Source of the DNA: Tahibacter aquaticus
GTDB taxonomy: Bacteria > Pseudomonadota > Gammaproteobacteria > Xanthomonadales > Rhodanobacteraceae
Direction of reading: 5' to 3'
NCBI RefSeq assembly: GCF_004363655.1
Contig: NZ_SNZH01000012.1
Span: forward strand, 1-64,000
DNA: 64,000 bases
Numbering within the stretch: the first letter of the stretch is position 1; every line of letters begins with the position of its first letter. Shown piece by piece: positions 1 to 63,526 of this stretch. The notes beneath the pieces are model-generated. The model made no database searches and had not been told where the DNA came from. It saw nothing but the letters and a program-made list of their open reading frames with translations. Position numbers and translations under genes: made by a program.

Positions 1-1769
1 GCCAGGCGGCCCTGGGTCAGCAGCGCCACCGGCGCGCAGTCGGCCAGCATGTAGGCGAGCCGGTCGGCCGGATAGGCCGGATCCAGCGGCACATATGCCG
101 CGCCAGCCTTGAGGATGCCGAGCAGGCCGACCACCAGGTCCAGCCCGCGCTGCACACAGATTGCCACGCGCTGGTCAGGCTTCACGCCCTGCGCCAGCAG
201 CGCATGCGCCAGCCGGTTCGCGCGCTGGTTCAATTCGGCATAGGTATACGTTTCTCCTTCGCTGCGCAGCGCCGGCGCCGTGCCGGCGCGCGCTACCTGC
301 GCCTCGAACAGGCTGGCGATGGTCTGCGCACCGGATGCGGCCTGCTGTGTCGCGTTGAAGCCCAGCAGTACTTGCTCGCGCTCACGCGGCGACAGCAGTG
401 GCAGGCGGCTGACGCGCTGCGTGCTGTCGGTGCACATACCGTCGAGCAGGACAACGAAACTGTCCGCCAGCCGTTCGATCGCGGCGGCGTCGAAACGCTC
501 GCTGTCGTAGGCGAAATCGCAGCGCAGTTGTTCGCCGAGGTCGAGCGTCTGCAGCGCCAGCGCCAGGCGGTCGCCGGCCACGCGCTGTTCCAGCGCGAAC
601 GGGCGCAATTCCAGCTCGCCCCAGCGCACGGCTGCAGCATCGCCCTGGCTGTTCCAAAGCCCGCTCAGCGCCTGGCCCCGGCGTGCGTTCTGGAACACGA
701 ACAGCGCCTGGAAGAATGGATGCACGCCCGCGCCACGCGCTGGCTGCAGGCGTTCGACCAGCTGCGAAAAAGGGTATTCCTGCTGCGCCATGCCTTTCAG
801 CGCCGTGCCGCGCACGCGGCGCAGTAGCTGGGCGACGCTGGGGTCGTCGCCGAACGTGGTGCGCAGGGCGATGACATTGACGAAATCGCCGACCACACCA
901 TCCCATTTCGCCTGCCCGCGGCCGGGCATGGGCGCCCCGACGACAATGTCGTCCTGGCCGGCATACCGGTGCAGCAAAGCCTGATAGCCCGCCAGCAGTA
1001 CGCTGAACAGCGTCGCTGCCTGCTGCCTGGCCAGCGCACCCAGGCGCTGCGTGAGCGCGCTGTCCAGCAGGCGCGTGACGATGCGCTGACGGCCGCCGGA
1101 CGCCGCCGGGCGCATGCTGTCGCCGGGCAGGTTGAGTACCGGCAGTTCGCCTGCAAGCTGCGATTCCCAATAGGCGAACTGGCGCTGCGCCTGGGCATCC
1201 TGAGCGAGCCATTCGCGCTGCCAGGCTACATAATCTGAATATCCCACAGTGGATTTGTCGGCAACTGCGCTGTGCTGGACATCCGACAGCAGCTTGCCCA
1301 GCTCTTCCAGCAGCAGCCAGTACGACCAGCCGTCGCAAATCAGGTGGTCGAGCGCGAACAGGAATGCCGACTCGGATTCGCTGCGCCGATACACAACGGC
1401 GCGGAACAGCGCGCTGCCGGACAGATCGAACGGCGCGTAGGCATCTTCGCTGACGCGCGACTGCAGCGCTGCGCTATCGAGCCCGCTCGCATCGACGATG
1501 CGCAGCGGCACCGGCGCGGCTTCGGCTATGCACTGCTGCGGCGCCTGGCCCTGCAGGCAGCGCAGGCGCGCCCGCAGCATTGGGTGGCGCGCGGCGAGGC
1601 GCGCGATCGCGCGGGACAGGGCTGCCTCGTCGACCCGCCCCCGCAAGCTGGCGGAAAAGACATTGTTGTGATTGCCCTGTCCGGCCGGATCGACCTGGTA
1701 CAGAAACCAGCGGCTGTTCTGCGCCGATGACAGAGGGAACCACGCGTCAATTGCCGAACTAGCATGCAT
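1..1769 (-). CDS. Non-ribosomal peptide synthetase, N-terminal part (condensation then adenylation domain), cut by window edge
   Basis: The open frame starts at ATG 1769 (M-H-A-S-S-A-I) and runs off the left edge; 589 complete codons are visible. Residues about 8-440 read as a condensation domain. It opens with the typical W-F-P-L-S-x-A-Q-x-R entry, and the HHxxxDG active-site motif appears as DHLICDG at residues 141-147: the second, catalytic His is kept and the first is Asp. From about residue 490 an adenylation domain begins: the A1-like stretch TYAELNQRANRLA is at about 508-520, followed by the A2-like LKAGAAYVPLDPAYP. No carrier domain precedes the condensation domain, so it should be the chain-initiating one. 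With a fatty-acyl-AMP ligase and a free carrier protein upstream, it probably N-acylates the first amino acid (inference). Adenylation specificity residues lie outside the window, so the product is unknown. A GGAA stretch lies upstream of the chosen start. The gap to the carrier gene is 244 bases, long for this operon. Confidence 0.9.
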   Translation of the reverse strand, partial: MHASSAIDAWFPLSSAQNSRWFLYQVDPAGQGNHNNVFSASLRGRVDEAALSRAIARLAARHPMLRARLRCLQGQAPQQCIAEAAPVPLRIVDASGLDSAALQSRVSEDAYAPFDLSGSALFRAVVYRRSESESAFLFALDHLICDGWSYWLLLEELGKLLSDVQHSAVADKSTVGYSDYVAWQREWLAQDAQAQRQFAYWESQLAGELPVLNLPGDSMRPAASGGRQRIVTRLLDSALTQRLGALARQQAATLFSVLLAGYQALLHRYAGQDDIVVGAPMPGRGQAKWDGVVGDFVNVIALRTTFGDDPSVAQLLRRVRGTALKGMAQQEYPFSQLVERLQPARGAGVHPFFQALFVFQNARRGQALSGLWNSQGDAAAVRWGELELRPFALEQRVAGDRLALALQTLDLGEQLRCDFAYDSERFDAAAIERLADSFVVLLDGMCTDSTQRVSRLPLLSPREREQVLLGFNATQQAASGAQTIASLFEAQVARAGTAPALRSEGETYTYAELNQRANRLAHALLAQGVKPDQRVAICVQRGLDLVVGLLGILKAGAAYVPLDPAYPADRLAYMLADCAPVALLTQGRL

Positions 1770-2339: not shown

Positions 2340-5300
2340 TCAGGCACTTACGCCGGACGCCACATTATCCAGAACACCATCAATGTAATCTCTGCTGCAT
2401 TGTGATCGCCTGACCTTGCCGCTGGACGTGCGTGGCAGCGCGCCTGGCCTGATCAGTACGACATCGGCCACCGGCACGCCGAACTGGTCGCTGATGCGCG
2501 TACGTACGGCGCTGCGGATCGACGGCCATTCCTCCTCGCGGCGCAGCCAGTCGCGCTTGAGTTCGAACACGACGACGAGCCGCTCCACTTCGCCTGACGT
2601 CACGCCGAACGCCGCGCCGCCGGCCTGGCGCAATGCGTCGTGGGCAAGCTCGCATTCGTGTTCGATGTCCTGCGGCGAATACTTCCGGCCGTTGACGATG
2701 ATCAGATCCTTGAGCCGGCCGGTGACATAGAGCTGGCCGTCCTGCAGGAAACCCAGGTCGCCGGTGCGCAGGTACGCCGTGCCGTCGCCGTCGGCGATCT
2801 GCGCACGGAAGGTCTGCTGGCTGAGTTCGGGGCGCCGCCAATAGCCCTGCGCGACACTGCCGCCGCCTACCCAGATTTCGCCGGTCTCGCCTTCGCCCAG
2901 GCGCAGCAAGGTCTGCGGATCGACGATCTCGACCGTCGTGTCCAGCCGCGGCGCACCGCAACCGACGACGTCGACGCTGTCGCGGCGGCTGATGCGCACC
3001 GGCGTGCCGGCCTGGGCGCCGGTAATGAACAGGGTCGACTCGGCCATGCCGTAGCAGGGATAGAAGGCCTCGGCGCGGAAGCCCAGGCTGGCGAAGCGTT
3101 CGCTGAAACGCGCGATGGTGGCCGCACGTATCGGCTCGGCACCGCAGAAGGCCACGCGCCAGCCGGACAGGTCGATGCCATCGAGATCGCTGTCCTTGAT
3201 CGCGCGGGCAGCCAGGTCGAACATGAAATTCGGGCCGCCGCTGACGTTGACGCCGAACTTCGCAATGATCTGCAGCCAGCGTTCCGGGTACTGCACGAAC
3301 TCGGCCGGTGACAGGAAACCCGCGACGCAGCCGGAATACATCAGCTGCAGCACGCCGCCGACCAGGCCCATGTCGTGGAACAGCGGCAAGGCCGTGAACA
3401 GGGACGACGAGGACGAGATTTCCATCGCCTCGGCAATGACAGCGCAATTGCGCACCAGATTGCCGTGGCTGACGACGACACCCTTGGGGTCGCCGGTAGA
3501 GCCCGAGGTGTATTGCAGGAAGGCCGGCGCGTGTTCGTCGATGGGCGGCAGCGCAGCCGCCACCGCGACAGCTACGCCCTGCTGCGACAGCTGGCGCAGA
3601 TCGAACCGCAGCAGCCCTTCGCCGGCCGCCGTCCACTCGGCAATCTCGTCGCCGTCGAACAGGACTGCGCACGCCTGGGCATCGTCGGCGATCAGTTGCA
3701 GCCGCTCCAGCAGGTTGCGCCGCTTCGGCACTACCGACGGCACGGCGACGACGCCGCCGAGCAGGCAGGCGTAGAACGCAACGACGAACTGCTGCTGCGA
3801 CTTGCACACCAGCAAGGCACGCTGTCCGGCCAGTCCCTGGGTGCGCAACACCTGGGCCAGTGCAGCGGCCTGCTGCCACAGCTCGCCAAAGGTCAGGGTC
3901 TGCGGCACCAGGCTTGCGCCGCTGAAAAAACGGCAGGCGACACGCTGCGGCTGCAGGCGCGCGCGTTCGCGCATGATGTCGGGGAAGCACGGCGTGCGCT
4001 CCACTGCCTCGTCGAGCTGGCTGGGCTGTGCGTAGTCGGCCCCGCCGGTCCGCAGCAGCAGCGGCTCGGCGGGCGCTGCCACCGCCAGCGCTGCGCTGCC
4101 ATCGCTGGCGATCCTGCCTTCGCTCATCACGATCAGCCGGTCGGCTACGTTGAAATAACGGTCGTCGTGGGAGATCACGATCACCGCCTTACCCTTGGCC
4201 TTCAGCTCCGGCAGGATGCGGTTGTAGAACACCAGCTTGAACGAAGGATCCTGGTCGGCAGCCCATTCGTCGAACAGGTAAAGCTCGGCATCTTCGAGAT
4301 ACGCCGCCACCAGCGCCAGGCGGCGGCGCTGGCCGTCGGACAGGGACAGCGTGGAGAAACGGCCGTTCTCGAAGCTGACCTTGCTGTCGAGTTCCAGTGC
4401 CTTGAGATAGGCATCCACATCGGCCTGCACATCGCGGCCGTCCAGGCCCAGCGCCCGGTCGAACAGGTAGTAGTCGGAGTAGATCGCCGCGATACCACGG
4501 CGGAAACCAGCGAGGTTGTGTGTGTCGACGGTCTCGTCGTCGAAACGGATGGCACCGGCACTGGGGCTGTAGTGCAATGTCAGCAGCTTGCTCAGCGTCG
4601 ACTTGCCCGAGCCGTTGCCGCCGACGATGAAGGTGATTTCGCCCTTGCGCACTGTCAGGTTCAGCGGGCCGACACGGAAGCCCGCATCGCCCTTGCGGCC
4701 TTCGTACTGATAGCAGACCTCGTCGAAACGCAGCGTCTGCCAGTCGCGCCGGGCAGCACACTGGGTTTCGACCGGCTCGTGCTTGATCTGGCCGAACAGC
4801 TCGTTGACGCGGCGCAGGGCAACGCGCGCCGTGACCAGCTGCGGCACGAAGTTCAGCAGCACCGCGATGGGCCCGGTGACGTAGAGCAGCACCATGATCA
4901 CGCCGTTCATTTCCTGCGGCGTGATGGCGTGGTAGTTGGCGAAAACGAAGCTGACCGCACCGATGACGAAGAACGAGATCAGGTCACCGTAGTTCTGCGT
5001 GACGCGGATGATGGTATTGCCGGTCTTGCCCGCATCGCGCACGGCGTGCTCGTGCGCGGCAATTACATTGTGGAAATAGTCTTCTCGCTTGTCGCTGTTG
5101 AGCTTGAGCTCCTTGGCACCGTGGACCAGCCCGCGGATGGCTTCGTGCAGTCCGTCCAGATTGCGCCGGGCGCGGATCAGGTAGCGCCGGCCCAGCAGCA
5201 TCGGCGCCTGGTAGGTCAGCGCGCCGAAAAAGATGCACAGCATGACGAAGCGGAACACGGCCGAATTGAGGTAGTACACATAGCCGAGCATGCCGACCAG

Positions 5301-5753
5301 GGTGACGCAGCTGGTCAGCAGGTCGGGCAGCAGGCGTGCGCCGGCGATCAGCGCCGGCACGTCCGAGGTGATGGACGCGATCAGCCGCGGCATGCCGACG
5401 CGCTCCAGGTCGGCGATCGGCGCGTTGGATATGCGCCGGTACAGCGTGGTGCGCAGGTCGCTGGTGGCGTCCATGGACACGCGCGTGAGAATGACCTGCG
5501 AGGCTGTGCGCGCAGCGAGAATCAGCAGGCAGGCCAGCACGAAGCTCGCGGCAAACTTGAAATGCGAGATCTGCCAGCCGAACAGGAACGCAGACTCGCT
5601 GCCGACCGTGGGGAAGCTGCCGTCCTCGGGCGCCAGGCCGTTGAGCACCAGCGGAATGATCAGCGCGTAGGTCGCACCGGCGAGCACGCCGAGAATGATC
5701 GACAGGAAGACACGGTTGGGTGCCTTGTCGACCAGCAGTCCGAGCAGCTTCAT
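2340..5753 (-). CDS. Cyclic-peptide-type ABC exporter fused to a fatty-acyl-AMP ligase
   Basis: One uninterrupted 1137-residue frame. Residues 1-310 form an exporter membrane domain with about six hydrophobic segments (for example 15-37, 68-85, 145-185, 255-305). Residues 335-560 are the ATPase: Walker A GGNGSGKST at 378-386, signature LSLSDGQRRR at 469-478, Walker B LYLFDE at 491-496, switch His in VISHD at 526-530. The layout resembles the SyrD/PvdE cyclic-peptide exporter family. Residues from about 580 to the end are an acyl-adenylating enzyme: YTSGSTGDPKG at about 748-758, later YGMAEST, a TGRLKDLIIVNGRKYSPQDIE hinge and a C-terminal TSSGKVRR lysine. This is the fatty-acyl-AMP ligase pattern of lipopeptide loading modules. 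Start ATG 5753 overlaps the upstream acylase stop as ATGA, with a GGAG inside the acylase end. An exporter and a loading ligase in one chain is not an arrangement I know. Inferred role: activate the fatty acid at the membrane and export the finished acyl-peptide. Confidence 0.9.
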   Translation of the reverse strand: MKLLGLLVDKAPNRVFLSIILGVLAGATYALIIPLVLNGLAPEDGSFPTVGSESAFLFGWQISHFKFAASFVLACLLILAARTASQVILTRVSMDATSDLRTTLYRRISNAPIADLERVGMPRLIASITSDVPALIAGARLLPDLLTSCVTLVGMLGYVYYLNSAVFRFVMLCIFFGALTYQAPMLLGRRYLIRARRNLDGLHEAIRGLVHGAKELKLNSDKREDYFHNVIAAHEHAVRDAGKTGNTIIRVTQNYGDLISFFVIGAVSFVFANYHAITPQEMNGVIMVLLYVTGPIAVLLNFVPQLVTARVALRRVNELFGQIKHEPVETQCAARRDWQTLRFDEVCYQYEGRKGDAGFRVGPLNLTVRKGEITFIVGGNGSGKSTLSKLLTLHYSPSAGAIRFDDETVDTHNLAGFRRGIAAIYSDYYLFDRALGLDGRDVQADVDAYLKALELDSKVSFENGRFSTLSLSDGQRRRLALVAAYLEDAELYLFDEWAADQDPSFKLVFYNRILPELKAKGKAVIVISHDDRYFNVADRLIVMSEGRIASDGSAALAVAAPAEPLLLRTGGADYAQPSQLDEAVERTPCFPDIMRERARLQPQRVACRFFSGASLVPQTLTFGELWQQAAALAQVLRTQGLAGQRALLVCKSQQQFVVAFYACLLGGVVAVPSVVPKRRNLLERLQLIADDAQACAVLFDGDEIAEWTAAGEGLLRFDLRQLSQQGVAVAVAAALPPIDEHAPAFLQYTSGSTGDPKGVVVSHGNLVRNCAVIAEAMEISSSSSLFTALPLFHDMGLVGGVLQLMYSGCVAGFLSPAEFVQYPERWLQIIAKFGVNVSGGPNFMFDLAARAIKDSDLDGIDLSGWRVAFCGAEPIRAATIARFSERFASLGFRAEAFYPCYGMAESTLFITGAQAGTPVRISRRDSVDVVGCGAPRLDTTVEIVDPQTLLRLGEGETGEIWVGGGSVAQGYWRRPELSQQTFRAQIADGDGTAYLRTGDLGFLQDGQLYVTGRLKDLIIVNGRKYSPQDIEHECELAHDALRQAGGAAFGVTSGEVERLVVVFELKRDWLRREEEWPSIRSAVRTRISDQFGVPVADVVLIRPGALPRTSSGKVRRSQCSRDYIDGVLDNVASGVSA

Positions 5754-8212
5754 GGCGCCTGCTCCGCCGGCTGCCGCGGCGCCGCGGCAGGTATCAGGGT
5801 GATTCCCTGTGCGCCGCCGCTGTCGCTGCGCATAGCAGCATATTCCACATTGCGAAAACGTTCGACCATGTCGTCGTAGTGCTTGCTCATCACGTTGCCG
5901 GACTGCCCTGTCGAATTCATGTACAGATGCTCGACCGCGCCGGGCGCCAGTGCGATCAGCTGGCGGAAGCCCGCGCCGAAATCCTGCACATAGCCCGACT
6001 TGTCCAGCGAAAAATTGGCCACGTTGACACTGTCGGGCGAACCGCCGTTGCCGATGCGGCGCTGGAACACATCGCGCAGCACGCTGACATCGCTGAACGG
6101 CGTGTGCCGGTAGACGGTCTCGTGCATGCTGCTCCAGGCCCAGTCCTGCATCGAATCGTCGCCGTCGATCTTGAGCAGCTCGCGCAGGGCGCGGTTGAGC
6201 GAGACGTCGAGCACGTCGTCGCAGACCGGCTCGGGACTGACCGCATCGCGCGGACTGCACCACTGGCCCTGTTCGTCGTCGAGCACGCGCTGCAAGCTGT
6301 CCAGGTCGAGGCTGTCGACGACCGACCGGGTGTATTGGCTTTCGTCGCTCTTGTTCCAGTTGCCGCCGAGGTCGTTGGCCAGTAGCTGGCGCTTCAGATG
6401 CCGTGTCCAGGCATTGAAGATCGAGGCAGCCTGGCTGTCGCCGCGCATGTCGCCCTGCCAGTCCTTGAGGTAGCGATAGGCCAGCCGCTGGCGATCGCTG
6501 CTGGGTTCGTGCTGCAGCAGGCGGCCGAGCAGACGCCGTGCCGGTTCGCTCTGGCTGTCGCCCTGGATGCGCTGCATTGCGGCGAGATCCAGCGGCGTGC
6601 CTGCATCGCGCGCCTGCCCGAGCAGGGCCGTGATGCGGTCGGCCCGCGTCGGCGTGGCGAAATCGCTGCCGATCAGATACGGATAGTCGTCCGCGACCGG
6701 CTTGTTGTTAGCGCTGACCAGGAAGCCCGAGGCCGGGTTGTAGCTTCGCGGCCACGCGGTAAATGGAATGCTGCCGTTCCATTCGTAGCTGTCGGTCCAG
6801 CCCGGCACCGGCAGCATGCCGTCGCCACCGTGGCGCGTGGGAATGCGGCCCGCAGCGAGGTAGCCGATATTGCCGGCACGATCGGCATAGACAAAGTTCA
6901 TCGCCGGTGCGACCTGCTGGCTCAGCGCCTGCTGGAAGGCATCCCAGTCGCCGGCAAAGTTCAGGCGGAAGAAGGCTTCGTAGGACGAGTCGTCCGCATC
7001 CAGCGCTGTCCAGCGCAGGGCGGCGGGCTGTTCCAGCACCTTGAACATGTCGCTGACGATGGGGCCGTGGCGCGAGCTGCGCACGAGAATGCGCAAGGGC
7101 CGCAGCTTGTTGCGCAGGAAAGCCGGGAAATCCTGCTTGACCTGGATGAATTCCTCGCGCGTGTCGAACGGCACCCATTGCCCGTTCACGGCGTAATAGG
7201 CGTTGTCCTCGGGCTTGGCCTGTTCGAGATAGAGATCCTGCGCATCGGCCATGAGGTTGGTGCCGCCCCAGGCGATCTGCCGGTTGCGCCCGAACACCAC
7301 GACGGGCAGCCCGACCAGGGTCGCGCCGGCAACATCGAGCTGGTCGCCGCGCAGCGAGGCCATGTACCACAGCGAGGGAATCTGCAGCGCCAGGTGAGGA
7401 TCGTTCGCCAGCAGCGCCGCGCCGTTCGCGGTGAGCTTGCCCGATACCACCCAGGCATTGCTGCCGACGAAGCGGCCGCCGATCTGCAGCCTGGATTCCA
7501 GTGTTTTCTGGAATTGTGCAAGTTGCTGCAGAGGCTCCAGCGGCGCGGCACCGAGCTGCGCAACGGTCAGGGCAGCTCCTGCCGGATACTGCGGAAACAG
7601 CGCCTGCAGTGTGCGCGGGCTGGCGCTGCGGGCGACCATGAGGCGGTCGATCTCGCGCTGGAAATTGCCGCCGAGATCGAGCGCGAACACCTTGGCCCAG
7701 GCCAGCGAATCGAAAACCGTCCAGGGCTCGGGCCTGATGCCGAATACGGCGAACTCGGGCGGCAGCACAGGATTGCCCGCAAGCCAGCCGTTGATGCCGT
7801 CGGCATAGGCCTGTAGCGACTGTTGCGCCTGCGGACTGAGCGTCGTCCAGGCAGACCGCGCCGACTGGCTGAAGCCCAGCGTGCGGAACCAGATGTCCTG
7901 CGGGATGCTGTCCTTGCCGAACACTTCGGACAGCCGCCCGGCGGCGATGCGGCGCTGGATTTCGAGCTGCCACAGGCGATCCTGTGCGTGCACGAAACCC
8001 ATGGCGTAGAACGCGTCGCGGTCGCTGGCGGCAACGATATGCGGCACACCCATGGCATCGCGCTGCACGCTCACCGGCGCGGCGACGCCGGCCACTACCT
8101 CGCCCTGCACCGGCGGCAGGCTCTTACGCAGATGCCACAGCCCGCCGCCAGCCAGCGTCAGCGCCGGCGCGACGACAAAAACAAGCACCCGAGACAACAG
8201 CCCACCCAACAT
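5750..8212 (-). CDS. Penicillin-acylase-family Ntn hydrolase (putative periplasmic deacylase)
   Basis: An 820-residue precursor of the family size for penicillin acylase/AHL acylase (PvdQ/QuiP-like) Ntn hydrolases. An N-terminal hydrophobic segment (residues 3-24) looks like a signal peptide or anchor, so it should act in the periplasm. The pattern is family-like: RDxxGVPHIVA near residue 51, the FVHAQDRLWQLE block at 73-84, and the autocleavage site G250-S251 in GSNAWVVSG, Ser251 becoming the N-terminal nucleophile of the beta chain. Downstream, ANDPHL and NLMADAQDLY also fit. It is the first gene of the unit: AGGAGA precedes ATG 8212, and its stop overlaps the exporter start. The exporter, fatty-acyl ligase and NRPS next to it suggest it removes the fatty acyl chain from the exported peptide, as PvdQ does for pyoverdine precursors (inference). 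It could instead be a quorum-signal or antibiotic acylase. Confidence 0.88.
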   Translation of the reverse strand: MLGGLLSRVLVFVVAPALTLAGGGLWHLRKSLPPVQGEVVAGVAAPVSVQRDAMGVPHIVAASDRDAFYAMGFVHAQDRLWQLEIQRRIAAGRLSEVFGKDSIPQDIWFRTLGFSQSARSAWTTLSPQAQQSLQAYADGINGWLAGNPVLPPEFAVFGIRPEPWTVFDSLAWAKVFALDLGGNFQREIDRLMVARSASPRTLQALFPQYPAGAALTVAQLGAAPLEPLQQLAQFQKTLESRLQIGGRFVGSNAWVVSGKLTANGAALLANDPHLALQIPSLWYMASLRGDQLDVAGATLVGLPVVVFGRNRQIAWGGTNLMADAQDLYLEQAKPEDNAYYAVNGQWVPFDTREEFIQVKQDFPAFLRNKLRPLRILVRSSRHGPIVSDMFKVLEQPAALRWTALDADDSSYEAFFRLNFAGDWDAFQQALSQQVAPAMNFVYADRAGNIGYLAAGRIPTRHGGDGMLPVPGWTDSYEWNGSIPFTAWPRSYNPASGFLVSANNKPVADDYPYLIGSDFATPTRADRITALLGQARDAGTPLDLAAMQRIQGDSQSEPARRLLGRLLQHEPSSDRQRLAYRYLKDWQGDMRGDSQAASIFNAWTRHLKRQLLANDLGGNWNKSDESQYTRSVVDSLDLDSLQRVLDDEQGQWCSPRDAVSPEPVCDDVLDVSLNRALRELLKIDGDDSMQDWAWSSMHETVYRHTPFSDVSVLRDVFQRRIGNGGSPDSVNVANFSLDKSGYVQDFGAGFRQLIALAPGAVEHLYMNSTGQSGNVMSKHYDDMVERFRNVEYAAMRSDSGGAQGITLIPAAAPRQPAEQAP

Positions 8213-47888: not shown

Positions 47889-49571
47889 ATGAGCATCCAA
47901 CGCCCCTGGCTCGCGAACTATCCATCCGGCGTTCCGGCCGAGATCGATCTTCAAGAGTTTTCCTCGGTCGTTGCGGTACTGGAGTCGGCCTGCGAGCGAT
48001 TCCGCCAGCGCCCGGCCTTTTCCAATATGGGCAAGGTGCTGAGCTATGACGACGTCGATCGCCTGAGCCGCCAGTTCGCCGCCTTCCTCACCGGCGATCT
48101 GGGTCTCAAGCGCGGTGACCGCGTCGCCCTGATGATGCCCAACGTGCTGCAGTATCCGGTGGCGATCTTCGGTGTGCTGCGTGCCGGCCTGACCGTGGTC
48201 AATACCAATCCCATGTATACGCCGCGCGAGCTGAAGCATCAGCTCAGCGATTCCGGTGCCGCCGCCATTGTGGTGCTGGACAATTTCGCCGCGACCGTCG
48301 CCGAAGTACTGCAGGACAGCGCCTGCAAGCACGTCATCACCACCGGCCTGGGCGACATGCTGTCGTTTCCGAAGTCGCTGGTTACCAACCTGGTGGTCAA
48401 GTACGTCAAGAAACTGGTGCCGGCCTACCAGATTCCCGGCCAGATCCGCTTCAACGATGCACTGGCCCGCGGTGCGAAGCAGACATTCCGACGCGCCGAG
48501 CTTACTCACGACGACATCGCCTTCCTGCAATACACCGGCGGCACGACAGGCGTGGCCAAGGGCGCCATGCTCACCCACGGCAACCTCGTCGCCAACATGC
48601 AGCAGGCCTCGACCTGGATAGGCCGCAACGCCAAGCTCGGCGAAGAAATCATCATCACGGCGCTGCCGCTGTACCACATCTTCGCGCTGACCGCGAACGG
48701 CCTCGTGTTCATGAAGTTCGGTGGCCTGAACTACCTCATCACCAATCCGCGCGACATGGCCGGCTTCGTCAAGGAACTGGGCCAGGTACCGTTCACCGCG
48801 ATCACCGGCGTCAATACCTTGTTCAACGGCCTGCTCAACACGCCCGGCTTCGACCAGGTGGATTTTTCCCATCTGCACCTGACCCTGGGCGGCGGCATGG
48901 CGGTGCAGCGTGCCGTGGCGGAACGCTGGAAGAAAGTCACCGGCGTCACGCTGATCGAAGCCTACGGCCTGACCGAGACCTCGCCGGCCGCCTGCATGAA
49001 CCCGCTGGATCTGCCCGAATACAACGGCGCCATCGGCCTGCCCATTTCCTCGACCGAGGTCTCCATTCAGGACGACGACGGCAACCAGCTGCCGATCGGC
49101 GAACGCGGCGAACTGTGCGTGCGCGGCCCGCAGGTCATGAAAGGCTATTGGAACCGCCCGGAAGAAACCGCCAAGGTGCTGACCGGCGAAGGCTGGCTGC
49201 ATACCGGCGACATCGCGCGCATGGACGAAAAAGGCTACGTGTATATTGTCGATCGCAAGAAAGACATGATCCTGGTGTCAGGCTTCAACGTCTATCCCAA
49301 CGAAGTCGAGGACGTGGTCGCCACCCATCCAGGCGTACTCGAAGTCGCCGCCATCGGCATACCCGACGAAAAGTCCGGCGAAGCCGTGAAGATCGTCGTG
49401 GTGAAGAAAGACCCGGCCCTGACCGCTGACGATCTGCGCGCCTATTGCAAGGCCAACCTGACCGGCTACAAGCAGCCGCGCTTCATCGAGTTCCGCGATA
49501 CGCTGCCCAAGAGCAATGTCGGCAAGATCCTGCGGCGCGAATTGCGCGATACGCCGAAAACCGCGGCCTGA
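47889..49571 (+). CDS. fadD: Long-chain fatty-acid-CoA ligase
   Basis: 560 residues, the FadD length. Activates fatty acids to acyl-CoA via acyl-AMP. ATP/AMP motif [13 protein letters not shown] (about 215-228), then [39 protein letters not shown] and the C-terminal catalytic Lys in [14 protein letters not shown]-terminus ERPWLANYP-like ([18 protein letters not shown]) is the FadD start. Start ATG 47889 matches that. It is the CoA-type enzyme, distinct from the fatty-acyl-AMP ligase domain of the left-edge cluster. Confidence 0.95.
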
Positions 49572-60067: not shown

Positions 60068-63000
60068 ATGCGTAAACCGTTGTATCTCGCTCTCGCTGCC
60101 TTGCTTGGCGGCAGCGCCCTGGCCCATGCCGCCGACACCGTCCGCGTGCGTCTGGACCATTCCGCCGGCTCAGTGCTTGAGGCCCTCTCCATTGCTCCGC
60201 TCAGCCGCGAGGGCTACGGCAGCTTCCAGGTGCTGGAACTCACCGCCGCCGACGCGCAGAAACTGCTGGCTCAAACGAAACAGGCCAGTGTGATCGAGGA
60301 TGCAGGCCGCATCCGCTTCAACCAGGTCGACTTCGATCCGCTGCGCAATCCGGCCCAGTCCCGCGCCGGCTTCTTCCCGACCACCAGCGATGGCTACGGC
60401 CTGCATCTGGTGCAATTCGATGCACCGATCAAGCAAGCCTGGCGCGACGAGCTGGAAGCGCGCGGACTGCGCGTGCTGCAGTACTATCCGGGCGAAGCTT
60501 TCCTGGTCTGGGGCCGCATGGACAGCGTCGCCGAAACTGTCGCCATGCCGCATGTGCGCTGGCAGGGCGGTTTCCTCGACAGCTTCAAGATCAATCCGGA
60601 ACTGAGCCGCTACAACGGCCGCATCCGCAATATCGATGTGCATTTCTACAATGATGGCAATGTCACCGGCCTGATCGGCGAGCTGGAAAAGCTGGGCGCC
60701 ACCGTGCTGACGCATGCGCCGGCGCAGCCGGACAAAGCCTTCTTCGACGCGTGGATCCAGGTCGACGCCGACAAGCTCGGCCAGCTGGCCGCGCTGCCGC
60801 AAGTCGTCGCGGTGGCCTATGCCAGCCCGCGCGGCTTTTTCGAAGACGAAATGTCCGACCAGATCGTGGCCGGCAACTACAACGCCTCGAACCAGCCGCA
60901 GCTCGGCTATTCGCCCTGGCTGACCACCTTCGGCTATAGCGGCGCCGGCGTGATCATGGGCGTGACCGACTCGGGCGTGGACCTGACCCATCCGGACCTG
61001 CAGGCGCGCATCGTCGGCGGCTATACCTTCCCCGGCTGCTCCAGCCCGGCCGGTGGCGACGATAATTCCAACGGTGGCCACGGTACCCACGTGGCCGGCA
61101 TCATCGCCGGCCAGGGCCTGGGCGACGGTCCCGGCGGCAGCGTCGCAGAAACCGATGCGGCCGGCTTCTACTACGGCCTGGGCGTGGCCAAGGGCGCGCA
61201 GATCTACGCCATGGCAACCGTCGACTGCGGTGCGCCGTGGCCGCCGGCCGCGGGCTGGCAGGAACTGTCCAAGCGCGGCATCGCCGGCAATGCCATCGGC
61301 ACCAATGCCAGCTGGACTACCGGCGAAGGTGCCAACCACGGCTATCAGGCCAGTGAACGTACCTTCGACACCATGGTGCGCGACGGCGATTTCGATACCG
61401 CCGGCAGCCAGCCGTACATCATTGCGTTCTCCGCCGGCAATTCCGGCCCGAATCCGAACACGCTGACCGCGCCCAAGGAAGCGAAAAATCCGATCATCAC
61501 CGCCGCCTCGCGCAACTTCCGCGTCGGTGCGATCAACGACATCGCCAGCTTCTCCAGCCGCGGCCCTGCGGTCGACGGCCGCGTGCTGCCGAACGTCGCT
61601 TCGCCGGGCGAGCAGATCGCCTCGACCATGCGTCGCGCCGGCGGCACCGCCTGTGCCACGGCCATCAGCGGCACAGCCAGCCACTACGCGATGTGCAGCG
61701 GCACCAGCATGGCCTCGCCGCATACTGCCGGCGCAGTCGCGGTGCTGACCGAATGGTGGCGTTCCAACCACAGCGGCGCGACGCCCAGCCCGGCCATGGC
61801 CAAGGCCCTGCTGGTCAACGGCGCCATCGACATCGGCGCCAGCGCCGACGTGCCGAACAACAACGAAGGCTGGGGCCGCATCAACCTGCCGCGCAGCGTC
61901 GGCGGTGCCTCGCCGCGCCATATGGTCGACCAGACCGTAGTGCTGGACAACGCTGGCGAAAGCCATATCGTCTCGGCCGGCATTGCCGATCCGACCAAGC
62001 CCGTGCGCATCACCCTGGCCTGGACCGACGCGCCCGGCGCGGTCGGTGCCAACCCGGCCCTGGTCAACAATCTCGACCTGGAAGTGACCAACGGCGCCAA
62101 CACCTACAAGGGCAACGTACTCACGGCAGGCATCTCCACCACCGGCGGAACCGCCGATGCGAAGAACAATGTGGAGAATGTATTCCTGCCCGCCGGTGCC
62201 AGCGGCTCGCTCATGGTCACGGTTCGCGCAACCACCCTGCCCGGCAACGGCATTCCCGCCACCGGCGACGCGACCGACCAGGACTTCGCCCTGATCTGCG
62301 ACAACTGCGCGCTGACGCCGAACTACAGCCTGCTCGCCACGCCCGGCTCGGTGGAACTGTGCTCGCCGGGTTCGACGGCTTTCACGGTCAACGTCGGCAG
62401 CATCCTGGGCTATACCACTCCGGTCGCCCTGACCACCAGCAACGTACCCGCCGGCGCCACGCTCAACGTGTCGCCGTCCAGCGTCGTACCGGGCAATTCG
62501 GCCACGGCCACCTTCGTCCCGGGTAGCGCGGCTGCAGGCAGCTACAGCATGAACGTCGATGCGAGTTCAGCCAGCGGCAACCAGACCCTGCCGCTGAGCC
62601 TGGTGCTGGCAACACTGACGCCGGCCGTGCCGACGCTGACCGCACCCGCCGACAACGCCACCCTAGTGGCCCTGAACCCCACCCTGAGCTGGTCGGCTTC
62701 GGCCCAGACCAAGAACTACACGGTGGAAGTGGCGACCGATGCAGGCTTCAGCGCCATCGTCTTCACCCAGAACGTGGTCGGTACCGCGAACTCGGTGGCA
62801 GTCGCCCCGGCACTCAACAGCAACACGCGCTACTACTGGCGTGTACGTGCCGCCAACGTCTGCGGCACCAGCAACAATGCTCCGGTGTTCACCTTCAAGA
62901 CCGCGCCGGCACCGGGCGATTGCGACGATGCACAGACGCCGAACGTGGTGTTCAGCAACGACATCGAAGGCGACATGAGCACCTGGGCCACCACCGGCAG

Positions 63001-63526
63001 CACCGGTGCCTCGACCTGGGCAGTCAGCTCGGCACGTCCGCTCTCGCCGACCAAGTCCTGGCTGGCTGTCGACCTGGCCACCACCAGCAACCAGCTGCTG
63101 ATCTCGCCGGCAGTTGTCCTGCCGGCCGGCCAGTCGCCGCTGACCCTGAGCTTCCAGAGCGACCTCAATCTGGAACCGCGCACGGCCGGCGGCTGCTGGG
63201 ATGGCGGCCTGCTGGAAATCTCCACCAACAACGGCACCAGCTGGACCCAGGTGCCGAACGCCCAGTTGCTGACCGATCCGTATACCGGCGCGCTCAACGA
63301 CGGTCCGGGCAACGGCCTGCAGGCCTGGTGCGGTACGCGTGCCTACAAGAAGTCGGTGGTCGACCTGAACAGCTATGCCGGGCAGACCGTGCGCTTCCGC
63401 TTCCGCGTCTCCTCTGACAGCAGCGTCGGCCTTACGCCGCACGGCTGGTACGTGGACGACGTCAAGGTACAGGGCTGCTCGGCCGCCCCGGTCGACCAGA
63501 TCTTCCGCAACGGCTTCGAACCGTAA
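60068..63526 (+). CDS. Secreted S8 (subtilisin-family) serine protease with C-terminal domains
   Basis: 1152 residues. Signal peptide MRKPLYLALAALLGGSALAHA (1-21). A propeptide-like region runs to about 265. The S8 catalytic triad is Asp301 (GVTDSGVDLTHPD), His338 (GGHGTHVAG) and Ser547 (CSGTSMASPH). A P/proprotein-like beta domain follows (about 560-750, with AWTDAPGAVG). Then there are Ig- or fibronectin-type repeats (YSLLATPGSVELCSPGSTAF and SWSASAQTKNYTVEVATDAG) and a MAM/jelly-roll-like terminal domain (FQSDLNLEPRTAGGCWDGG). It ends in V-D-Q-I-F-R-N-G-F-E-P. Exported, probably outer-membrane-secreted, and degrades extracellular protein. A paralogue with a near-identical signal starts 377 bases downstream. 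Confidence 0.95.
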   Translation: MRKPLYLALAALLGGSALAHAADTVRVRLDHSAGSVLEALSIAPLSREGYGSFQVLELTAADAQKLLAQTKQASVIEDAGRIRFNQVDFDPLRNPAQSRAGFFPTTSDGYGLHLVQFDAPIKQAWRDELEARGLRVLQYYPGEAFLVWGRMDSVAETVAMPHVRWQGGFLDSFKINPELSRYNGRIRNIDVHFYNDGNVTGLIGELEKLGATVLTHAPAQPDKAFFDAWIQVDADKLGQLAALPQVVAVAYASPRGFFEDEMSDQIVAGNYNASNQPQLGYSPWLTTFGYSGAGVIMGVTDSGVDLTHPDLQARIVGGYTFPGCSSPAGGDDNSNGGHGTHVAGIIAGQGLGDGPGGSVAETDAAGFYYGLGVAKGAQIYAMATVDCGAPWPPAAGWQELSKRGIAGNAIGTNASWTTGEGANHGYQASERTFDTMVRDGDFDTAGSQPYIIAFSAGNSGPNPNTLTAPKEAKNPIITAASRNFRVGAINDIASFSSRGPAVDGRVLPNVASPGEQIASTMRRAGGTACATAISGTASHYAMCSGTSMASPHTAGAVAVLTEWWRSNHSGATPSPAMAKALLVNGAIDIGASADVPNNNEGWGRINLPRSVGGASPRHMVDQTVVLDNAGESHIVSAGIADPTKPVRITLAWTDAPGAVGANPALVNNLDLEVTNGANTYKGNVLTAGISTTGGTADAKNNVENVFLPAGASGSLMVTVRATTLPGNGIPATGDATDQDFALICDNCALTPNYSLLATPGSVELCSPGSTAFTVNVGSILGYTTPVALTTSNVPAGATLNVSPSSVVPGNSATATFVPGSAAAGSYSMNVDASSASGNQTLPLSLVLATLTPAVPTLTAPADNATLVALNPTLSWSASAQTKNYTVEVATDAGFSAIVFTQNVVGTANSVAVAPALNSNTRYYWRVRAANVCGTSNNAPVFTFKTAPAPGDCDDAQTPNVVFSNDIEGDMSTWATTGSTGASTWAVSSARPLSPTKSWLAVDLATTSNQLLISPAVVLPAGQSPLTLSFQSDLNLEPRTAGGCWDGGLLEISTNNGTSWTQVPNAQLLTDPYTGALNDGPGNGLQAWCGTRAYKKSVVDLNSYAGQTVRFRFRVSSDSSVGLTPHGWYVDDVKVQGCSAAPVDQIFRNGFEP

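Follow-up and report, generated by a model that had tools for sequence, protein, structure and literature searches.

The stretch of DNA analysed here (the window) comprises the first 64,000 bases of contig NZ_SNZH01000012.1 of Tahibacter aquaticus (assembly GCF_004363655.1). It carries on its minus strand a gene of 1137 codons in which an ATP-binding cassette (ABC) transporter of the cyclic-peptide-export type is joined in frame to an adenylate-forming enzyme of the fatty acyl-AMP ligase (FAAL) type. Exporter and FAAL form a new combination of known parts, which is unique in what was searched. As the best explanation of the whole, with a rough probability of 0.55, we regard the gene as a real fusion inside a fatty-acyl-primed nonribosomal peptide pathway. 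The fusion is represented by one genome (n = 1), whose assembly is a draft of 82 contigs with completeness 100 and contamination 0.08.

Exporter and ligase in one reading frame

As outlined in Table 1, the gene occupies a single open frame, which runs from ATG to TGA without internal stop, while the plus strand at the same positions is interrupted by stops. An earlier note made from the letters alone had described this frame as a complete exporter joined to a complete acyl-AMP ligase, and the intact motifs and domain scores of both parts bear this out. The residue numbers given there for Walker A (378-386), Walker B (491-496) and the ligase core motif (748-758) were found to be exact.

Table 1 Features of the fusion gene and its neighbours in window coordinates.
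Feature	Position	Strand	Evidence
ABC exporter-acyl-AMP ligase fusion, 1137 aa	2340..5753	-	open frame, profiles, motifs
Residues 1-554, ABC half-transporter of the cyclic-peptide-export type, with membrane and ATPase parts	4092..5753	-	TIGR01194, motifs, hydropathy
Residues 552-589, linker, Ala/Pro-rich, low model confidence	3987..4100	-	
GTG codon 584, possibly an internal ligase start, relict or functional	4002..4004	-	anti-Shine-Dalgarno energy
Residues 590-1137, FAAL-type adenylate-forming enzyme	2340..3986	-	profiles, motifs, fold
Acylase of the penicillin-amidase family, 820 aa (possible alternative start at 8188)	5750..8212	-	PF01804 722.9 bits
Free acyl carrier protein, 89 aa	2014..2283	-	PF00550 66.2 bits (cut-off 20.8)
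Start of nonribosomal peptide synthetase, condensation then adenylation domain	3..1769	-	PF00668 291.8 bits, PF00501 109.4 bits

Residues 3-554 match TIGR01194 over positions 8-553 of its 554 with 393.1 bits (cut-off 286.2); the general ABC membrane model PF00664 stays below its cut-off (17.2 versus 28 bits). Besides the Walker motifs, the ABC signature (from residue 469) and the H-loop histidine (His 529) are present. Hydropathy analysis with a threshold of 1.5 gave seven partly overlapping windows, all within residues 19-303, where the structure model is poor. By profile score and motifs the N-terminal half is of the cyclic peptide export ABC type (TIGR01194; PvdE/SyrD type), with peptide export as its predicted function.

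In the C-terminal half, PF00501 (AMP-binding) was matched at residues 595-972 with 218.5 bits (cut-off 29.9) and PF23024 at residues 1016-1129 with 30.3 bits (cut-off 27). The A3 core motif, motif A5 (from residue 901) and the A10 lysine (Lys 1113) were identified. The FAAL models PRK05850 and PRK09192 score 406.7 and 360.2 bits, compared to 170.7 bits for the coenzyme A (CoA) ligase model PRK06187; PRK07768, a model named CoA ligase, scores 273.5 bits, and the curated FAAL cut-offs (775 and 600) are reached by neither model in this half. The AlphaFold2 model of the ligase half is mostly confident, and its top 29 fold matches are all FAAL-type, the best being the FAAL of a Synechococcus olefin synthase (E 1.3e-53). 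Two hydrophobic windows (residues 657-675 and 796-814) lie in stretches common to the free ligases of relatives, and consequently the ligase half is taken as cytoplasmic. It is closest to FAAL enzymes by both sequence and fold, from which acyl-AMP formation and loading of an acyl carrier protein (ACP) are predicted.

The ligase belongs to a subfamily in which a segment at residues about 912-926 falls short of that in most of the other FAALs measured by 16-18 residues. In the window ligase, as in nine close relatives (L021, L025, L026, L030, L031, L032, L140, L149 and L151), motifs A5 and A6 stand 57 residues apart; the spacing is 73-75 in ten of eleven more distant FAALs, 61 in the remaining one (L033) and 69 in a Methylosinus domain; four further sequences (L036, L085, L145 and L157) fell outside the motif patterns. 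Compared to 7r7f, the stretch of the window ligase is 18 residues shorter. The FAAL-specific insertion, a barrier to CoA, is presumably located between A5 and A6. The shortening, seen as a difference in length only, could therefore bear on CoA rejection.

Search for a second fusion

The full protein was searched against eight overlapping genome sets at E-value limits of 1e-150 to 1e-90: its own family (233 genomes, 5 with a match), the order (398, 9), the class (369, 1), the family of G395 (395, 22), the phylum (289, 28) and three genera (20, 7 and 20 genomes with 7, 3 and 5 matches, respectively). At these limits no second exporter-ligase fusion was obtained, and a single match across both halves occurred in the source genome only. 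For the first five sets two or three candidates were scored per genome, so that a weak fusion could escape. From at least 558 FAAL relatives 80 named loci were inspected; an exporter in the reading frame of the ligase occurs in none of these 80, with little upstream sequence visible in some of them since the contig starts shortly before the ligase. Among 3,824 plasmid records with a match, query coverage reaches 80% or more in seven; in each of these the match falls into two parts, and exporter and synthetase are annotated as different genes. Likewise, no exporter-FAAL fusion protein was found in the open-licence papers searched. The earlier note had named many well-studied proteins with this architecture as evidence against its observation; no such protein emerged from these searches.

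For comparison, related exporters were read to their stop codons in 28 distinct records, namely 27 genomes of the order and one Alteromonas plasmid (L150 duplicates L030, and L153 duplicates L031). These free exporters have about 548-615 residues and no ligase in frame; in the relatives read, exporter and ligase are thus separate proteins. The note's description of the ligase as usually either a free enzyme or a portion of the synthetase held as well: it stands free beside an ACP gene in nine relatives, is contained in open frames of 4089-4632 codons in seven further genomes, and is found at the start of a nonribosomal peptide synthetase (NRPS) directly behind an exporter gene in the Methylosinus plasmid pMSC49a.

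The junction

The two halves are connected by about 38 residues, and the predicted local distance difference test (pLDDT) score is below 50 for residues 517-587. A sequencing or assembly artefact, either a hidden stop codon or two genes wrongly joined, has to be considered for a single genome in an 82-contig draft, the more so as seven linker codons are one substitution away from a stop. Nevertheless, the junction lies about 4 kb inside a contig of 254,657 bases (C12), GC content is even across it, and the quality values of the assembly are good (see above). The codon log-odds of the linker are +8.1 in the read frame versus -9.0 and -14.6 in the other two, and its GC content at third codon positions is 0.89, with 0.86 and 0.84 in the flanks. 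Frames +1 and +2 are stop-free within the linker, with the next stops near residues 620 and 1124, and a missed indel would therefore not give back two tidy genes. A frameshift at the junction was ruled out on these grounds, since coding-like codon use is confined to the read frame. Taken together, an artefact is most improbable, and the fusion, in the one genome that carries it, is very probably genuine. Coding-like codon use of the linker together with intact halves also indicates that the fusion has not decayed.

The tails of free exporters past the last conserved stretch are variable, from a few to about 65 residues. Because free exporters end at about 548-615 residues, the fused exporter appears to retain its full tail, and by eye the tail of the nearest free exporter (L138) resembles the first half of the linker. 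The fused ligase begins near the native start of free ligases. GTG codon 584 stands six codons before the F of a conserved F-P-E-I motif; in the free ligases of G319 and G395 a possible start with a good Shine-Dalgarno (SD) sequence, chosen by us, stands three codons before this motif. The anti-SD energy at GTG584 is -5.9 kcal/mol versus -5.8 to -7.3 for the starts of the acylase, fusion and ACP genes. Our preferred reading is that the exporter stop codon was lost, by which a former leader of the ligase would now be translated.

The same observations bear on a neutral read-through fusion, in which the stop was lost by chance, both halves work as their free relatives do, the linker or GTG584 may yield a free ligase, and nothing is coupled. 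The source genome as sole carrier among the genomes searched, the short Ala/Pro-rich linker of low model confidence, its likeness to the exporter tail of L138 and the position of GTG584 near the native ligase start, behind a fair SD-like stretch, all fit this explanation. On the other hand, the SD spacing of GTG584 is only about two bases, and four of the 59 internal in-frame start codons, GTG584 included, are as good; furthermore, linker and halves read as one intact coding sequence. We consider neutrality a strong rival and a real possibility, albeit a somewhat unlikely one.

Gene neighbourhood and proposed pathway

The acylase, fusion, ACP and NRPS genes lie on one strand. The acylase gene is located directly upstream of the fusion and overlaps it by four bases (ATGA), and the ACP gene follows 56 bases downstream of it. 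The NRPS, whose start codon was selected by us, is cut off because window base 1 is also base 1 of the contig. Past the acylase gene a short frame without Pfam match is followed by genes for methionine sulfoxide reductase, GMP synthase and IMP dehydrogenase; as these are ordinary genes, the cluster seems to end there. The acylase has a hydrophobic N-terminus, and its Ser251 occupies the position of the nucleophile, residue 1 in the solved beta chains, that of PvdQ (5ubl) included. With the PvdQ model NF051460 it reaches 101.8 bits, below the cut-off of 950, and it is consequently assigned to the penicillin-amidase family (PF01804) only.

The overlapping acylase gene and the free ACP point to a fatty-acyl-primed pathway. 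From the order of the parts and the precedent of pyoverdine, for which export of acylated ferribactin, most likely via PvdE, and deacylation by PvdQ are described in PMC6206403, we infer the following course. In the cytoplasm the C-terminal ligase would adenylate a fatty acid and load it onto the free ACP encoded next, and the first condensation domain of the NRPS would couple the acyl chain to the first amino acid. The N-terminal ABC half, presumably as a homodimer, would export the finished acyl-peptide; a homodimeric pump would accordingly carry two ligases. The acylase encoded upstream probably strips the acyl chain in the periplasm.

An alternative product is a true lipopeptide, in which the fatty acid is retained and the acylase has a different role, e.g. 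in signal hydrolysis or self-protection. FAAL-ACP starters are indeed used for lipopeptides in other pathways, such as PuwC-PuwD of puwainaphycin (PMC4219810), and Rugamonas (L032) and Janthinobacterium (L021) have a FAAL-ACP-NRPS arrangement with no such acylase or exporter detected within the stretches examined. One genome, G090, has the exporter without the acylase. However, of the 27 genomes of the order in which the exporter was read, 26 have the acylase gene directly before the exporter gene, including those in which no FAAL was detected, and in the window it overlaps the fusion gene as well. We regard retention of the fatty acid as rather unlikely.

Several results weigh against the best explanation as a whole. 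The fusion occurs in one genome only, and the remainder of the NRPS lies beyond the contig end. The PvdQ score of the acylase is low, and its best match in the PDB is a D-succinylase. The pair of acylase and exporter is not universal: in G090, where a related exporter is encoded, the 20 kb examined contain no match to the acylase. The hydroxylase model PF13434 gave four weak matches in the source genome, the best with 30.8 bits, and the same model also matches 12 of 14 control genomes. Finally, AlphaFold2 predicted the exporter half poorly, from an alignment of the query and three exporter rows, and the model gives nothing on the packing of the two halves.

A siderophore as product of the window is not supported, the PF13434 matches being weak and located outside the window. 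For this reason the parallel to pyoverdine is one of logic and not of product. Ten neighbour frames in relatives were also compared with Pfam: seven have a match, none of them to a siderophore family, and three have no match.

Gene order and trees of the relatives

In nine genomes (L025, L026, L030, L031, L140, L141, L149, L151 and L152) FAAL and ACP genes lead the NRPS on one strand, and the acylase and exporter genes adjoin on the opposite strand. In G926 the FAAL-ACP pair is on a separate contig. In G430 and G1010 the genes for acylase and exporter are succeeded on one strand by an NRPS whose first domain is a condensation domain, and in G999 an NRPS adenylation domain is found 1.4 kb behind the exporter. 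L027, L028, L029 and L146 likewise have NRPS domains downstream of the exporter gene and on its strand, and this order is therefore not special to one clade.

The exporter tree groups the window with G430, G999 and G1010 (support 100/99), three genomes in which no ligase was found, and this group is sister to a clade of eleven which contains the nine exporters of the divergent clusters. In the ligase tree the window sequence joins the FAALs of the nine divergent clusters (95/96) and branches outside all nine (87/85). For the first condensation domain of the window, identity is 43-56% with its counterparts in FAAL clusters and 44-45% with those in G430 and G1010; with similar identities to both kinds it does not decide the origin of its block. 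We take the window to combine blocks of both kinds, acylase-exporter from one and ligase-ACP-NRPS from the other. The fusion would have originated when both blocks came to lie head to tail and the exporter stop codon was lost. An alternative history, in which an ancestor had both blocks that were later rearranged, fits as well.

No FAAL was detected in G430 and G1010 (L023 and L139) at the threshold used, which leaves a route of peptide acylation without a FAAL candidate despite acylase, exporter and an NRPS beginning with a condensation domain. The exporter of G090, which belongs to the window's own family, is found at 9224-10864 of L179 and is 48% identical. In L140 (1537-3778, G945) a homoserine dehydrogenase-type gene and an alpha/beta hydrolase gene stand between ACP and NRPS, a hint at building blocks of related products.

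Comparison with known systems

The pyoverdine system of Pseudomonas (PvdL with FAAL-ACP-C, PvdE and PvdQ) comprises the same functions, i.e. ligase, carrier, first condensation domain, cyclic-peptide ABC exporter and N-terminal nucleophile acylase. Furthermore, the NRPS profile PRK05691 aligns first with the window ligase (9-567) and then with the window condensation domain (672-1026). Unlike in pyoverdine synthesis, the ligase of the window is fused to the exporter, the ACP is free and the NRPS starts with the condensation domain.

Clusters of Lysobacteraceae (e.g. Lysobacter sp. ISL-50, L030; G395, L026) contain the same parts, with, in these two, acylase, exporter, ligase and ACP 53-66% identical and the first condensation domain 43-49% identical to those of the window; they differ in that exporter and ligase are separate genes, which are divergently transcribed. 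Plasmid pMSC49a of Methylosinus sp. C49 resembles the window in that an NRPS with an initial FAAL-type domain comes directly after the exporter gene, at a locus among siderophore genes (receptor, ornithine oxygenase, MbtH). Here, however, identity is 37-39%, the two genes are 65 bases apart, the ligase domain is in another frame, and the ligase is fused to the NRPS. In puwainaphycin synthesis separate genes for a FAAL (PuwC) and an ACP (PuwD) start the NRPS/polyketide synthase; no exporter fusion is described in the passages of PMC4219810 consulted, and the term ABC transporter is absent from its text.

Other features of the window and the source genome

The first 200 bases of the cut NRPS gave 73-80% matches at twelve other places in the source genome and no overlap that would link it to another contig. 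Many AMP-binding or NRPS-like stretches in long frames are found on contigs C5, C9, C13, C20, C37, C38, C42, C46, C48 and C50, several of which are small, and the missing part of the NRPS may be among them. Elsewhere in the window, another AMP-binding ligase, complete with the usual C-terminal domain, is encoded at 47889-49571 on the plus strand; over 320 residues it shares about 30% identity with the fused one. At 60068-63526 on the plus strand, a protein of 1152 residues has a subtilase domain (292-603) as its sole Pfam match at the limit applied. Scans of the window with Rfam and for tRNA genes gave nothing.

Meaning of the fusion

In the proposed pathway the tether would hold the initiating enzyme, and via the ACP the synthetase, near the pump. 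PvdL, the starter of pyoverdine synthesis, is mainly located at the inner membrane; in a 2024 study (PMC11172790) the means of attachment is left open and contact with PvdE is not explored. We tentatively propose, at less than even odds, that the fusion is a natural tether which anchors the start of an acyl-primed NRPS on its own exporter and that, by the gene-fusion argument, free FAAL loading modules (PvdL and the FAAL-ACP pairs of Lysobacteraceae) bind exporters of the PvdE type. That the fusion couples loading with export is something we infer, against the neutral explanation discussed above. A closer form of coupling, in which the ATPase cycle of the pump gates the ligase and priming halts when export is blocked, is suggested by the architecture only; the linker with pLDDT below 50 gives no sign of a fixed interface, and no conserved fusion family is there to indicate selection, so that such regulation in cis is very unlikely.

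The fusion is of more interest than an ordinary one because its parts belong to the first step and the export step of a single pathway and because a prediction on its free relatives follows that can be tested. Although it stands alone, a natural fusion of exporter and FAAL gives direct genetic evidence for an initiating enzyme and a pump being able to work as a unit, and it provides one protein in which the coupling of loading and export becomes testable. It may also model the retention of an acylated intermediate at the membrane. If the proposal is true, the gene would be a one-gene version of the exporter-bound complex of pyoverdine synthesis, which has been proposed but not isolated.

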